From assembly GCA_001797815.1 (NCBI GenBank), contig MGQK01000045.1:25086-41200 (forward strand): a DNA stretch of 16,115 bases. Direction: 5' to 3'. Below, in pieces: positions 3,420 through 16,102 of this stretch. The notes under the pieces were generated by a model. The model had not been told where the DNA came from. It ran no database searches and saw nothing but the letters and a program-made list of their open reading frames with translations. A program made the translations under genes and the position numbers. This DNA is from Deltaproteobacteria bacterium RBG_13_61_14. GTDB lineage: Bacteria > RBG-13-61-14. Numbering within the stretch: position 1 is the first letter of the stretch; each line of letters begins with the position of its first letter.

Positions 3420-3448
3420 TTGACTCGGTTTAATAAACCTGGTATATT
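3420..3448 (+). promoter_or_regulatory. Strong sigma70-like promoter of the propeller gene
   Basis: TTGACT (3420-3425), 17 bp, TATATT (3443-3448). Each box has five of six consensus bases and the spacing is ideal. It lies just outside the repeat island and gives a leader of about 50 nt. Confidence 0.65.
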
Positions 3449-3491
3449 TTCCCTGTTTTTCTCAAGGCCCTTGAAATCTTGGATCCAAGCG

Positions 3492-3498
3492 AAGGAGG
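3492..3498 (+). promoter_or_regulatory. Ribosome binding site that fixes the propeller start
   Basis: A full AAGGAGG lies 5 nt before the ATG at 3504. It selects this start over an in-frame upstream initiation codon at 3420, which overlaps the promoter -35 box. Confidence 0.8.
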
Positions 3499-3503
3499 AG
3501 CCA

Positions 3504-4712
3504 ATGAAAACCGCGCACCGTCCTCTCATCCTCTCGGCCATTCTAGTCCTGATCTCGCTTCTCGTCTTTGATTGCGATGACGGCGACCCGTCGGTGGGTC
3601 CCCCTTCCATCTGCATCTGGCAGAAGCTCGGGTCAGACCTCCGGGTGACCAGCGCCGTGAATGATAGCTGGTTTCCCTCCCTTTCCTGGACAGGGTCCGA
3701 GTTCGGGGTGAGCTGGCAGGATTACCGGAACGGGAGCCCCGAGATCTACTTTGCCCGCGTGTCCGCGGCCGGGGCCAAGCTCGGGTCCGACCTCCGAGTG
3801 ACCAGCGACGCGAATTGGAGCGGTTACCCCTCCCTGGCCTGGACCGGGTCCGAGTTCGGGGTGAGCTGGATGGATGACCGCGACGGCAATCCGGAAATCT
3901 ACTTTGGCCGAATTTCCTCCACCGGCACCAAGATCGGGGCAGATGTCCCGATCACGAATGATTCCAATATCTGGTTGACTTATAGCGGGTGGAATTCCCT
4001 GGCCTGGACCGGGTCTGAGTTCGGGTTGAGCTGGATGGGTTACCGCGACAACTTGGAAGGGGAAATCTACTTTGCCCGCGTCTCCTCCTCCGGGGCCAAG
4101 ATCGGGGCAGATGTCCGGATCACGAATGATGCCAAAGCGAGCATGGTTCCTTCCCTTGCCTGGACCGGGTCTGAATACGGGGTGAGCTGGATGGATGAAG
4201 ACCCCGGCAATTATGAGATCTACTTTGCCCGCATCTCGGCCGACGGGACCAAGATCGGGGCCGATGTCCGGATCACGAATGCTACGGGTGGGAGAGAATA
4301 TCCTTCCCTGGTCTGGACCGGGTCTGAATACGGGGTGAGCGGGGAGGATAACCGCGACGGCAATTATGAGATCTACTTTGCCCGCATCTCGGGCAGTGGG
4401 ACCAAGATCGGGGCCGATGTCCGGATCACGAATGATGCCAATTATAGCGGGATTCTTTCCCTGGTCTGGACCGGGTCCGAGTTCGGGGTGAGCTGGATGG
4501 ATGACCGCGACGGCAATGATGAAATCGAAATCTACTTTGCCAGCATCTCAGCTTCCGGGACCAAGATCGGGGCAGATGTCCGGATCACGAATGATGCCAA
4601 TGATAGCTATTTCCCTTCCCTTGCCTGGGCCGGATCTGAATACGGGGTGAGCTGGATGGATCGCCGCGACGGCAATTGGGAAATCTACTTTGCCCGGATT
4701 GGCTGTCAATGA
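3504..4712 (+). CDS. Exported seven-repeat (probable beta-propeller) protein
   Basis: The protein has 402 residues. Residues 1-23 are a basic and strongly hydrophobic export signal ending VFDC at Cys24. The lipobox is poor, because Asp precedes the Cys, so lipidation is doubtful. From residue 41 to the end there are seven tandem repeats of 49-56 residues. Each holds a K-I/L-G-A/S-D-V/L strand, a TGSE(F/Y)GVSW strand, an acidic DDRDGN-like turn and an EIYFAR strand. Seven four-stranded units suggest one seven-bladed beta-propeller. Cys37 lies in an N-terminal strand that could complete the last blade, and Cys401 lies at the C-terminus, so a disulfide may lock the ring. Blade 5 lacks the conserved Trp. 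No catalytic signature is visible; a surface binding or adhesive role is inference, supported by the pilin gene next door. Confidence 0.8.
   Translation: MKTAHRPLILSAILVLISLLVFDCDDGDPSVGPPSICIWQKLGSDLRVTSAVNDSWFPSLSWTGSEFGVSWQDYRNGSPEIYFARVSAAGAKLGSDLRVTSDANWSGYPSLAWTGSEFGVSWMDDRDGNPEIYFGRISSTGTKIGADVPITNDSNIWLTYSGWNSLAWTGSEFGLSWMGYRDNLEGEIYFARVSSSGAKIGADVRITNDAKASMVPSLAWTGSEYGVSWMDEDPGNYEIYFARISADGTKIGADVRITNATGGREYPSLVWTGSEYGVSGEDNRDGNYEIYFARISGSGTKIGADVRITNDANYSGILSLVWTGSEFGVSWMDDRDGNDEIEIYFASISASGTKIGADVRITNDANDSYFPSLAWAGSEYGVSWMDRRDGNWEIYFARIGCQ
3624..4709 (+). repeat. Seven in-frame coding repeats of about 153 bp
   Basis: Units begin at 3624, 3777, 3930, 4098, 4251, 4404 and 4563. Segments such as AAGATCGGGGC followed by GATGTCCGGATCACGAATG recur almost without change in units 3-7, while units 1-2 form a slightly different pair. 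This implies recent duplication or gene conversion of units 3-7. Confidence 0.9.
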
Positions 4713-12133: not shown

Positions 12134-12162
12134 TTGACACGCCACCTTGATTTTGCGATCAT
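12134..12162 (+). promoter_or_regulatory. Promoter of the activase operon, predicted leaderless
   Basis: Perfect TTGACA (12134-12139), 17 bp, GATCAT (12157-12162; four of six). The expected +1, 6-7 nt after the -10 box, coincides with the A of the ATG at 12169, and no Shine-Dalgarno sequence is present. Confidence 0.55.
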
Positions 12163-12168
12163 GAACTC

Positions 12169-12951
12169 ATGCTGTTTGCGGGAATTGATGTAGGTTCTCT
12201 TTCGGCGAAAGTGATCCTGCTGGACGAGAGCCGAAAGGTGGTGGGAGAGGCGATTACCCTGACCGGCGCGAGCAGTATCAAGGCGGCGGAGCGGAGTTAT
12301 GCCGAGGCGCTGGCCCAGGCGGGCGCGCGCCGCGAGGACGTGGCCGTGGTGGTTTCCACCGGCTACGGTCGCGACCGGATTCCATTCGCCCATAAGCGGG
12401 TGACCGAGATCTCCTGCCATGCCAAGGGCGCTTCGGCGCTGTTCCCGGAGACGCGCACGGTGATTGACATCGGCGGCCAGGACTCCAAGGTGATCCGGGT
12501 GGACGGCAACGGCCGGGTGCAGAGCTTCCAGATGAACGACAAGTGCGCGGCCGGCACCGGCCGGTTTTTAGAGGTGATGGCCCGGGCCCTGGAGGTGGAG
12601 CTTTCGGAAATGGGACCTTTGAGCCGGCAAAGCCGGAACCGGATGACGGTGAGCTCGGTCTGCACGGTGTTTGCCGAGAGCGAGGTGGTGAGCCTGATCG
12701 CCTCGGGCGCTCAGCGGGAGGACATCATCCGGGGGATCCACGCCGCGATTGCGGACCGGACCCGCAGCCTGGCCGGCCGGGTCGGGATCGAGCCGGAGGT
12801 GACCATGACCGGCGGGGTGGCCAAGAACGCGGGAGTGGTGGCCGAGCTGAGCGAGCGGCTGGGCCTTCGGCTCAACCTGCCCGAGGAGCCGCAGACCGCG
12901 GGCGCCCTGGGAGCCGCCTTGTTCGCCTGTGAGCAAGGGATGAATAAATGA
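12169..12951 (+). CDS. 2-hydroxyacyl-CoA dehydratase activase-type ATPase (BadF/HgdC family)
   Basis: Family members are homodimeric ASKHA-fold ATPases that bridge one [4Fe-4S] cluster and use ATP to push an electron onto a partner enzyme. This 260-residue protein is of typical length. It shows phosphate-1 GIDVGSLSAK (5-14), STGYGR (63-68), phosphate-2 DIGGQDSKVI (100-109), cluster ligands Cys126 (DKCAAGTGRF) and Cys165 (SSVCTVFAESE), and the adenosine motif MTGGVAKNAGV (213-223). All key residues are present, so it should be active. The usual partners (HgdAB/HadBC dehydratase or benzoyl-CoA reductase subunits) are absent from the window. Its stop overlaps the next ATG by 4 bp, so its closest partner here is the DUF362-ferredoxin protein. 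It starts a four-gene operon. Confidence 0.93.
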   Translation: MLFAGIDVGSLSAKVILLDESRKVVGEAITLTGASSIKAAERSYAEALAQAGARREDVAVVVSTGYGRDRIPFAHKRVTEISCHAKGASALFPETRTVIDIGGQDSKVIRVDGNGRVQSFQMNDKCAAGTGRFLEVMARALEVELSEMGPLSRQSRNRMTVSSVCTVFAESEVVSLIASGAQREDIIRGIHAAIADRTRSLAGRVGIEPEVTMTGGVAKNAGVVAELSERLGLRLNLPEEPQTAGALGAALFACEQGMNK

Positions 12952-14066
12952 CCCAAGAACGCCTCCTGGTTTTCGACGCTTCCTACGAGCGCATGGACCA
13001 GGCGCTGGAGCAGGTGGTGGAAGGTCTGGACCTGGGAAGTTGGCTCGCGGCCACCCGCGGCAAAAAAGTCTGGATCAAGCCCAACATGCTCGGCCTGTTC
13101 AAGCCCGAGCAGCACTGCGCCACCCATCCCTCCCTGGTGCGGGAGCTGGTCAAGCTGTTCAGCGCCGCCGGGGCCGAGGTCATGGTCGGCGATAACCCGG
13201 GCGTGGGCGGCTACGGGCTCAACGAGAAAGTGGCTCGCCGCACCGGGATCCTGGCCGCGGCCGACGGCTGCTTCCGGAACGCGAGCGCGAAGCCCAAGGA
13301 AATCGAGATCCGCTCCCGCTTCTTCACCAAGATGGTGGTCTCCGAGGAAATGCTCCAGGCCGACCTGGTGATCAACGTGCCCAAGCTCAAGACCCACTCG
13401 CTCACCGTTCTCACCGGCGCGATTAAAAACATGTTCGGGATGCTCATCGGCGGCTGCAAGGGCCAGGTCCATGCCCACGCCAGCCGAATGGAGGAGTTCA
13501 GCGAGGCGCTGGTGGACCTGTATCAGATCCGGCCACCGGAGCTGACGATCGTGGACGCGATCATGGCCATGGAAGGCAATGGCCCCAGCGCCGGGAAGCT
13601 CCGCCCCCTCGGCAAAATCATGGCTTCCCGCAACGGGGTGGCCGCGGATCTGGCCGCCGCGGCGCTCACCGGCGCGGACCCGAACTCTCTCCATTTTCTG
13701 CGGATCGCGCAAGAGCGCGGGCTCGGCCCCCGTTCGCTCGCGGAGATGGACGTGCAGGGCAAGCTCAAGCCCGCGGCCCGCTTCAAGCTGCCGACCACCA
13801 TCCAGCGCTTCGGGTTCCTCGGCCAATGGTTCAACGACTACTTTTACACCGCCTTGCTCCGTCCCACTTTGGGCCTGCAACAAGATCAATGCAGCCAATG
13901 CCGGATTTGCGCGGACCATTGCCCGACCGGGGCCATGCAGATGGCGGACTATCCCTGGATTGACCAGGACAAGTGCATCCGGTGTTTCTGTTGTCACGAA
14001 CTCTGTCCGGAAAACGCCTGGGAGTTCCGCGGGCTGATGCGCCGATTAAGTGCCAGGCGACTTTAG
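12948..14066 (+). CDS. DUF362 protein with C-terminal 2x[4Fe-4S] ferredoxin domain
   Basis: The 372-residue protein has the DUF362 domain at about 37-260 (WIKPNMLG, THPSLVRELV, VGDNPG, DLVINVPKLKTHSLTVLTGAIKNMFGML). Its C-terminal domain has two CxxCxxCxxxCP motifs: Cys315/318/321/325 and Cys343/346/349/353, with an extra Cys348. DUF362 has no settled biochemical role; the fused domain should carry two [4Fe-4S] clusters for electron transfer. A 4-bp ATGA overlap with the activase gene implies translational coupling. I infer that it could donate electrons to the activase or be the target of its low-potential electron. No signal peptide or TAT motif is seen, so it is cytoplasmic. Confidence 0.9.
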   Translation: MTQERLLVFDASYERMDQALEQVVEGLDLGSWLAATRGKKVWIKPNMLGLFKPEQHCATHPSLVRELVKLFSAAGAEVMVGDNPGVGGYGLNEKVARRTGILAAADGCFRNASAKPKEIEIRSRFFTKMVVSEEMLQADLVINVPKLKTHSLTVLTGAIKNMFGMLIGGCKGQVHAHASRMEEFSEALVDLYQIRPPELTIVDAIMAMEGNGPSAGKLRPLGKIMASRNGVAADLAAAALTGADPNSLHFLRIAQERGLGPRSLAEMDVQGKLKPAARFKLPTTIQRFGFLGQWFNDYFYTALLRPTLGLQQDQCSQCRICADHCPTGAMQMADYPWIDQDKCIRCFCCHELCPENAWEFRGLMRRLSARRL

Positions 14067-14072
14067 CGAGTG

Positions 14073-14095
14073 GGGCCGGGTTTTAAACCCGGCCC
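14073..14095. repeat. 9-bp intercistronic hairpin before the moeA-like gene
   Basis: GGGCCGGGT (14073-14081), loop TTTAA, ACCCGGCCC (14087-14095), six bp after the DUF362 stop and two bp before the next ribosome site GAGGAG. There is no T-run. It may adjust expression between operon genes or be a further dispersed palindrome, since its G-rich arm and T/A-rich centre recall the repeats at 3302-3360. Confidence 0.6.
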
Positions 14096-14108: not shown

Positions 14109-15311
14109 ATGATTGAGATGATCGCTTTCGAGAGAGCGCGTTCGCTGGTGCTGGGGTCGGTGCATCCGCTGGCGAGCGAGCGGGTGGAGGTGACCTCCGC
14201 GGGCGGCCGGGTCCTGGCCGAACCGGCCGCGGTTTTAGTGGACTTGCCCTCCGCGCGGATTGCCACCCGGGACGGTTTTGCCTTGCGGGCAAAGGAAGCG
14301 GACCCCCGGCGCAAACTCAAGGTCCGGGGCAGCGCCTTTGCCGGCTCTCCTTATCCGGAGCCGCTGGCTCCGGACGCGGCGGTGCGCGTGACCACCGGCG
14401 CGGTGGTCCCGGAAGGCGCGGATACCGTGGTCCCGGACGAGGAGGTTTTGCGCGAGGGCGAGGAAATCCGGGTTCCGGGTTCGCTCGCGGTCAAGAGCTT
14501 TATCCGGGAACAGGGCGAAGAACTCCAGACCGGCCAGCCCCTGTTCCCGGCGGGCACGGTGATTGACCCGCCCATCCTCAGCCTGCTGGTCGCGGCCGGA
14601 CATGGGGAAGTGAAGGTGACCTGCCAGCCCCGGGCACGGGTCCTGGCCATCGGCGATGAGCTCCGTCCCCCGGGCCGGCCGCTCTTGCCGGGCCAGACCT
14701 ATCCGAGCGTGGCCTGGGCCATCGCCGCGGCTTTACGGCAATTGGGCATGGCCGAGGTGCGGGTGGAGCTGTGCGCCGACGAGGAAGACGCGATCCTGGA
14801 GTGTCTGCCCGAGCCGCTGGCCGCGGACCTGATCGTGACCTTGGGCGGCACCGGCCGCGGGGACCGGGACGTGGTCATCTCCGCTCTTGAGAACCGGGGT
14901 TGCGGGTTCGAGTTCCGGGGCATCAAGATGCGGCCCGGCCATTTCACCGCTTTTGGGTTGCTCCGCGAGGTGCCGGTGCTTTGCCTGCCCGGCGGGCCCT
15001 CAGCGGCGGAGGCGGGCTTTTACCAGTTTCTGCGGCCGGTGCTCCTGAAAATGCTGGGCCGGCATCGGCTCGAACTTCCCTCCATCCGGGCCAAGCTGGC
15101 GGAATCGGTCAGCTCACCGAAGGGGCAATACCATTTGATCCGGGGCCGGCTGGAGCGAAAAGAGCGGGAGGAGTGGTTTCATCCGCTTCACGAAACCGGC
15201 GTGCACCAGGAGCTGCGCCTGTCCAACGGATACCTGGCCGTGGCCGAGGCGGTGGAGCATCTGGGCGCCGGCTCCGAAGTCGAGATCGAATTGATCCGGG
15301 AACCCTGGTGA
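14109..15311 (+). CDS. moeA: Divergent MoeA-family molybdopterin molybdotransferase
   Basis: MoeA inserts molybdate into adenylylated molybdopterin. This 400-residue protein has the MoeA domain order: N-terminal ATRDGFALRA (52-61; DGYA site), VRVTTGAVVPEGADTV (92-107), domain 3 AIGDEL (180-185) and LGGTGRGDRD (245-254), MRPGHFTAFG (274-283), LPGGPSAA (293-300) and a C-terminal beta domain. It departs from canonical MoeA: GGVSVGxxD has become GGTGRGDRD, the GxIxDSN segment has become GQTYPS, and LPGNPVSA has become LPGGPSAA, so a conserved Asn is lost. It may be a paralogue for another cofactor or substrate. No molybdoenzyme or other moa/moe gene is in view. It is the third gene of the operon; the isoaspartate methyltransferase follows after 29 bp. 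Confidence 0.85.
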   Translation: MIEMIAFERARSLVLGSVHPLASERVEVTSAGGRVLAEPAAVLVDLPSARIATRDGFALRAKEADPRRKLKVRGSAFAGSPYPEPLAPDAAVRVTTGAVVPEGADTVVPDEEVLREGEEIRVPGSLAVKSFIREQGEELQTGQPLFPAGTVIDPPILSLLVAAGHGEVKVTCQPRARVLAIGDELRPPGRPLLPGQTYPSVAWAIAAALRQLGMAEVRVELCADEEDAILECLPEPLAADLIVTLGGTGRGDRDVVISALENRGCGFEFRGIKMRPGHFTAFGLLREVPVLCLPGGPSAAEAGFYQFLRPVLLKMLGRHRLELPSIRAKLAESVSSPKGQYHLIRGRLERKEREEWFHPLHETGVHQELRLSNGYLAVAEAVEHLGAGSEVEIELIREPW

Positions 15312-15340: not shown

Positions 15341-16102
15341 ATGAAGCCCGCCCGCCGCCTGCTGAAAATGCTTTCGGCCCTGGTCCTGATCCTGCTCGGC
15401 TCGTGCCATAGCTGCAACCATCGGCCCCCGCCACGCACCCCAGCGCCCGAACCGGGCCTCTCGGATCCATACGCGGCGTTGCGGGAAGAAATGGTGCGCG
15501 ATCAGATCGAGGCGCGGGGCATCAATGACCCCAAGGTCCTGAAAGCCATGCGCACCGTGCCCCGGCAGGAGTTCATTCCCGAAGCCGGCCGCAGCCAGGC
15601 CTACGGGGACCACCCGGTGCCGATCGGCTATGGCCAGACCATCAGCCAGCCATACATCGTGGCCTTCATGACCGAGGCGCTCAAGCTGAAGGGGCGGGAG
15701 AAGGTCCTGGAAATCGGCACCGGCTCCGGCTACCAGGCCGCGATCCTGGCCGAGATCGTGCCGGAGGTCTATTCCATTGAGATCTTGTGCGAGCTCTTAA
15801 AATTCGGCCGCCAGAACCTGGACCGCCTGGGCTACCAGCGAGTCATCACCCGGTGTGCGGACGGTTACCAGGGCTGGCCGGAGCACGCGCCGTTTGACGC
15901 GATCATGGTCACCGCGGCGCCGGACCATGTCCCCCAACCCCTGATCGACCAGTTAAAAGTCGGGGGACGCCTGATCCTGCCGGTGGGGGCCTTTTTCCAG
16001 GAACTGTTGCTGATCACCAAGACCGAAAAAGGGATCGCAAAACACTCCTTGCTCCCGGTCCGCTTTGTCCCCATGACCGGGGAGGCGGAACGGAAGAATT
16101 AA
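15341..16102 (+). CDS. pcm: Protein-L-isoaspartate O-methyltransferase with lipoprotein-type signal
   Basis: Pcm methylates isoaspartyl residues in aged proteins with SAM so that they can revert to aspartate. Residues 40-253 are a complete Pcm: MVRDQIEARGI (51-61), VPRQEFIP (73-80), PVPIGYGQTISQPYIVA (92-108), SAM motif I LEIGTGSGYQ (123-132), ADGYQGWP (173-180), FDAIMVTAA (185-193) and a closing GGRLILPVG strand. Unlike cytosolic Pcm (about 210 residues), it has a 39-residue N-terminal addition: basic MKPARR, a hydrophobic core at 10-20 and lipobox LGSC with Cys22, then a Pro-rich spacer. This predicts a lipid-anchored, periplasm-facing enzyme, where a SAM supply is not obvious. It ends the four-gene operon that begins at 12169. 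Confidence 0.92.
   Translation: MKPARRLLKMLSALVLILLGSCHSCNHRPPPRTPAPEPGLSDPYAALREEMVRDQIEARGINDPKVLKAMRTVPRQEFIPEAGRSQAYGDHPVPIGYGQTISQPYIVAFMTEALKLKGREKVLEIGTGSGYQAAILAEIVPEVYSIEILCELLKFGRQNLDRLGYQRVITRCADGYQGWPEHAPFDAIMVTAAPDHVPQPLIDQLKVGGRLILPVGAFFQELLLITKTEKGIAKHSLLPVRFVPMTGEAERKN

Follow-up and report, generated by a model that had tools for sequence, protein, structure and literature searches.

Activators of acyl-CoA dehydratases and related reductases are dimers with a bridging [4Fe-4S] cluster: ferredoxin reduces the cluster, ADP is exchanged for ATP, and once this ATP is hydrolyzed the electron is fired into the target enzyme, a dehydratase or reductase (PMC8473912, PMC11574389). In a classical HgdC–HgdAB or Bcr/Bzd operon the client genes are adjacent to the activator. 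Such genes are missing beside the activase on contig C45 described here, although the same genome does encode HGD-D clients. This contig is 57.6 kb long and carries the window, a stretch of 16,115 nucleotides; the draft genome to which it belongs measures 4.74 Mb at 95% completeness and comes from a phylum represented here by three genomes. The features of interest in the window are the following.

12169..12951, + strand: BadF/HgdC-type acyl-CoA dehydratase/benzoyl-CoA reductase activase, 260 aa (TIGR00241, PF01869, PDB matches, motifs)
12948..12951, + strand: ATGA stop-start overlap of the activase and DUF362 genes (sequence)
12948..14066, + strand: DUF362 protein with a C-terminal 2[4Fe-4S] ferredoxin domain, 372 aa (PF04015 E 2.2e-50, Fer4, Cys pattern)
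14073..14095, no strand: perfect palindrome GGGCCGGGTTTTAAACCCGGCCC between DUF362 and moeA (sequence, RNA fold)
14109..15311, + strand: MoeA-like molybdopterin molybdotransferase (PF03453, PF00994, PF03454; 39% identity to L167)
15341..16102, + strand: protein-L-isoaspartate O-methyltransferase, pcm (PF01135; 63% identity to L167; start codon picked by eye)

The activase, its overlapping DUF362 neighbor and the downstream block

The activase ORF is intact. Its product matches the TIGR00241 profile with 277.9 bits, above the curated cut-off of 125.4, and PF01869 with 243.6 bits against a cut-off of 31.5 (E 3.5e-72). All nucleotide and cluster motifs are found (GIDVGS, DIGGQDSK, NDKC126AAGTGRFL, SVC165TVFAESE and TGGVAKN); they comprise the ASKHA nucleotide motifs and the two cysteines of the cluster, Cys126 and Cys165. 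Judged by these profiles the protein is a member of the CoA-dehydratase/BCR activase family, and the sequence-only reading of an intact "archerase" is borne out. The best match in the PDB is MbdQ (9gai, E 6e-80), an ATP-binding subunit of class I benzoyl-CoA reductases (MbdQ/BzdQ/BcrA/BcrD), followed by the activators HadI (4eht, E 1.5e-75) and HgdC (1hux, E 9e-72); all three align end to end. The DCCP reductase (7yyl) also matches, and the window activase is closer to HgdC than to it. The likeness to HgdC and HadI extends to every nucleotide motif and to the pair of cluster cysteines but, unlike these activators of 2-hydroxyacyl-CoA dehydratases, the window activase has no dehydratase gene beside it. 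Unlike class I BCR, it is single rather than part of a paired ATP-binding dimer, and it falls below the cut-offs of the BCR subunit equivalogs TIGR03192, TIGR02259 and TIGR02261 (BcrA, BcrD, BzdQ; 201.6/380.2, 197/578 and 151/312.9 bits, score/cut-off). A promoter-like site at 12134–12162 (one found, 0.5 expected) was not counted as evidence.

The second ORF is likewise intact and on the same strand. To our knowledge, DUF362 is a family without a known function. The match to PF04015/DUF362, which is in the same Pfam clan as LarA/DUF2088 (PMC11770544), covers residues 41–238 with 172 bits against a cut-off of 24. It is followed by the cluster motifs C315-x2-C318-x2-C321-x3-C325P and C343-x2-C346-x2-C349-x3-C353P, confirming the two [4Fe-4S] motifs seen earlier. 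This cysteine pattern, including an extra Cys348, is invariant in 10 homologues, and many paralogues and orthologues in the family carry the ferredoxin domain as the window protein does. A sequence-profile search of solved structures matched the ferredoxin part only and gave no match for the DUF362 fold among the best 60 of 213 matches. From the ATGA overlap, translational coupling of the two genes, as proposed from the sequence, is likely.

The next gene on the same strand is moeA, and pcm ends a block that is syntenic with ferredoxin–moeA–pcm in the sister genome G001 (contig C249, L167:821-3160). There, a stand-alone ferredoxin of 81 aa, which shares 49–51% identity with the C-terminal region of the window DUF362 protein, precedes moeA (39%) and pcm (63%); the Fe-S gene upstream of it is transcribed divergently, and no activase is present there. 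Most simply, the activase would have come to stand in front of an older (DUF362/ferredoxin)–moeA–pcm block in the window lineage; the reverse history, loss of the activase from the G001 block, is possible. The 23-nt palindrome after DUF362 is predicted to form a strong hairpin (RNA fold –25.6 kcal/mol, z –3.7) without a T-run, and no further exact copy was found in ten other stretches of the window genome. Elsewhere in the window (3420–4712), a protein of repeated 'SLAWTGSEFGVSWMDDRDGN.EIYFARIS..GTKIGADVRIT'-like units is possibly a beta-propeller repeat protein.

Candidate clients and unlinked activases

A PF06050 search found no HGD-D client in the window or anywhere on C45, which extends the earlier statement that no dehydratase or reductase subunit is visible in the window to the whole contig. 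In the genome as a whole, PF06050 (HGD-D; HgdAB/BCR/double-cubane-type) matches in twelve places corresponding to eleven genes, the one on C106 being read as two pieces around masked bases. Two pairs lie on C40, one pair each on C73 and C21, and single genes on C65, C106 and C44. The C73 and C21 pairs each have their own activases, two in the case of the BCR-like locus on C21, and the other seven of the eleven genes are on contigs without any activase match. Client genes therefore outnumber the activases beside them, with the proviso that the first C40 pair starts at the contig start and that linkage may be lost at contig ends in draft MAGs. The label "orphan" given to the activase from sequence holds locally and fails genome-wide, and the check for an HgdAB-like dehydratase elsewhere proposed with that reading yielded these eleven genes. 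The genome also encodes long proteins with fused activase-like domains (L163:4928-9019, 1363 aa, and L164:6418-10344, 1308 aa).

The C65 and C106 proteins match two subunits that are paired side by side in G065, G066, G067, G060, G064, G026 and G037, so that this pair appears to have been split in the window genome. The C44 gene (L159:3625-4599) encodes a small HGD-D protein (about 324 aa) with three invariant cysteines and has homologues in 71 of 247 genomes. These proteins are distantly like double-cubane cluster proteins, showed no conserved neighbors and have no activase beside them. The C44 protein is most like NF040772 and the double-cubane cluster protein/reductase (6eno, 7yyl) and keeps its three invariant cysteines as part of this likeness, but it is shorter and scores far under the equivalog cut-off (56 against 350 bits). 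As a strict partner of activases the C44-type protein was rejected: it is enriched, being present in 41/101 activase-bearing and 30/146 other genomes (p 5e-4, uncorrected for relatedness), but not obligatory.

Activases without a linked client are found well beyond this genome. HGD-D genes are present in each of 14 genomes with close activases, among which G061 has a linked copy, and in a second set 29 of 30 activase-bearing genomes do, the exception being G265; HGD-D is thus present in 43/44 other activase-bearing genomes. In G068 the sole activase match and the sole HGD-D gene, of C44 type, lie on separate contigs. G063, G065, G066 and G067 each have just one single-domain activase, which is the unlinked copy, besides a long fused activase-like protein, and their HGD-D genes amount to one pair on a contig other than the activase's; G016 is similar. 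In a maximum-likelihood tree of 81 activases, 27 are client-linked and 45 unlinked, the latter an upper estimate, since a short flank or a contig end underlies some of the labels. The unlinked activases form several deep clades. What speaks against the client-less system envisaged from the sequence is that likely clients lie in trans and that activases without a linked client are both old and widely distributed. In several Desulfobacterota clades, unlinked activases (L281–L335, e.g. L303, L312 and L318) adjoin acyl-CoA dehydrogenase, enoyl-CoA hydratase-like and biotin-carrier-like genes, identified partly by eye, and these neighbors suggest acyl- or aromatic-CoA pathways.

Conservation of the activase–DUF362 pairing

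In the window's own phylum, G001 and G002 have an orthologous activase (59–61%). Immediately behind it come an HDAC-like gene and a gene for an FG-GAP protein, and the longer G001 contig continues with a cyclophilin-type PPIase and SppA. In the window genome these four genes (59, 34, 41 and 49% identity) stand behind an HgdB-like gene on C106. Comparison of L160:9166-15353 (G000:C106) with L046:1694-7741 (G001:C82) shows the HgdB-like gene and the activase swapped before the HDAC–FG-GAP–PPIase–SppA block.

A blast-level scan found DUF362 beside the activase in no relative, and a profile scan found none beside activases L016–L124. The best homologues of the window-type DUF362 protein (48–50%, full length) are in G060, G062, G064, G065, G066, G067 and G087, and each of these genomes has an unlinked activase on a contig other than that of the DUF362 gene. 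Among the neighbors listed in 15 neighborhoods of window-type homologues (41–50%) there is no activase, and no common partner except an amidase within one clade. The view that the pairing does not recur was overturned when a profile scan of a further set revealed a divergent DUF362 subtype directly upstream of the activase in eight Desulfobacterota genomes (G165, G287, G192, G131, G218, G265, G242 and G095). In this subtype the two [4Fe-4S] motifs interrupt the DUF362 domain, whereas in the window type they are C-terminal. A stop/start overlap (ATGA, TGATG or GTGA) is present in 8/8 coupled genomes, and the flanking genes are likewise conserved. The sequence-only reading had named the lack of a conserved neighborhood in relatives as what would refute it. 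That lack is found for the exact pair, both in same-order relatives and around window-type DUF362 homologues, and adjacency is conserved only for the other subtype in the eight-genome clade.

In the tree of 81 activases, the eight coupled ones form one well supported clade and the window activase groups with those of its own phylum. On this tree the DUF362 label has to change twice, and the coupling in the eight genomes probably had a second origin; a single origin is possible. Across 247 genomes of one phylum, with window-type DUF362 counted at E below 1e-74, this type occurs in 25/101 activase-bearing and 7/146 other genomes (p 5e-6, uncorrected for relatedness); conversely, the activase is present in 25/32 genomes with window-type DUF362 and in 76/215 others.

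Probable action in trans and a possible role of the DUF362 protein

We propose that the window activase is a canonical archerase acting in trans, with a gene order of the pair that is probably lineage-specific and without a dedicated two-protein system (probability roughly 0.68). Reduced ferredoxin (or flavodoxin) would place an electron on the [4Fe-4S] cluster that is expected to bridge the dimer through Cys126 and Cys165 of each subunit, and upon ATP hydrolysis the activase would hand this electron to HGD-D-type proteins whose genes lie on other contigs. Likely candidates for clients are the split C65/C106 pair, both of the C40 pairs, which lack an activase, and/or the small C44 protein of double-cubane-like type. 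The position of the activase before DUF362–moeA–pcm would then probably be a matter of lineage-specific gene order. In its favor are the eleven HGD-D genes of the window genome, seven of them on contigs with no activase match, the separate contigs of activase and HGD-D genes in G068, G063, G065, G066 and G067, the side-by-side C65- and C106-like genes in such genomes, the swap of activase and HgdB-like gene before the HDAC block, the 45 unlinked activases in the tree, the G001 block that has no activase, and the general mechanism of the family. Against it, a partner without genetic linkage is only a candidate, the long fused activase proteins (about 1300–1450 aa) could serve some clients, and the eight-genome coupling and the co-occurrence of DUF362 with activases hint at more than a bystander's part for DUF362.

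How the two genes came to be adjacent can be explained in several ways. We give about even odds to chance or lineage-specific adjacency in both lineages, with no functional link and an activase serving distant HGD-D proteins. It fits with the non-conserved pairing, the ferredoxin–moeA–pcm block in G001 without an activase, and the many DUF362 paralogues. On the other hand, the overlaps are kept in all eight coupled genomes, and chance adjacency in at least two of about 20 independent lineages has a probability of only ~0.005 (~0.5%), a rough estimate that assumes an expectation of 0.1 and a post hoc count.

If the DUF362-ferredoxin has any role here, the most attractive would be that of electron donor to the activase. 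That it is a dedicated ferredoxin carrier, the pair together reducing HGD-D proteins in trans, seems to us rather unlikely. The ATGA overlap in the window, the stop-start coupling of a different DUF362-2[4Fe-4S] subtype in another clade, the two changes on the tree, the co-occurrence of window-type DUF362 with activases and the known use of ferredoxin as electron source of activators (PMC8473912) all point towards it. Conversely, the window-type pair is not conserved, an HDAC gene adjoins the activase in same-order relatives, the window-type homologues have no activase neighbor, and most unlinked activases lack a DUF362 neighbor. Adjacency could also arise by chance among the 20 DUF362 matches in the window genome (2–5 per genome in the eight-genome clade), and general synteny may explain the coupling in that clade. 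A broader proposal, which we regard as more doubtful still, is that DUF362-2[4Fe-4S] proteins make up a recurrent and hitherto unrecognized class of partner dedicated to trans-acting BadF/HgdC activases, as electron donor or in cluster maturation, with at least two recruitments in two different architectures and the C44-type protein as one client.

That the DUF362-ferredoxin is itself the client, in an ATP-driven system of low-potential reduction that involves no HGD-D protein, is highly improbable: no HGD-D gene lies near the pair and one coupled genome (G265) has no HGD-D match, but G265 is a draft that may be incomplete, all other tested activase-bearing genomes have HGD-D genes, 7/8 coupled genomes carry the C44-type protein (the sole HGD-D gene in G095 and G218), and two standard ferredoxin-type clusters would not by themselves need an archerase. 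The earlier idea of the ferredoxin domain as donor or client in a client-less ATP-driven system loses the client-less system; a link between DUF362 and the activase is kept, less strongly than first put, on account of the second coupling, which probably arose independently.

For the preferred reading, action in trans, the implication is that an "orphan" archerase gene does not have to signal new chemistry: genes for activases often lie at a distance from those for their clients, so that local context alone misleads. At the same time, the recurrent stop-start coupling provides a testable hint that DUF362-ferredoxin proteins might supply electrons to activases.
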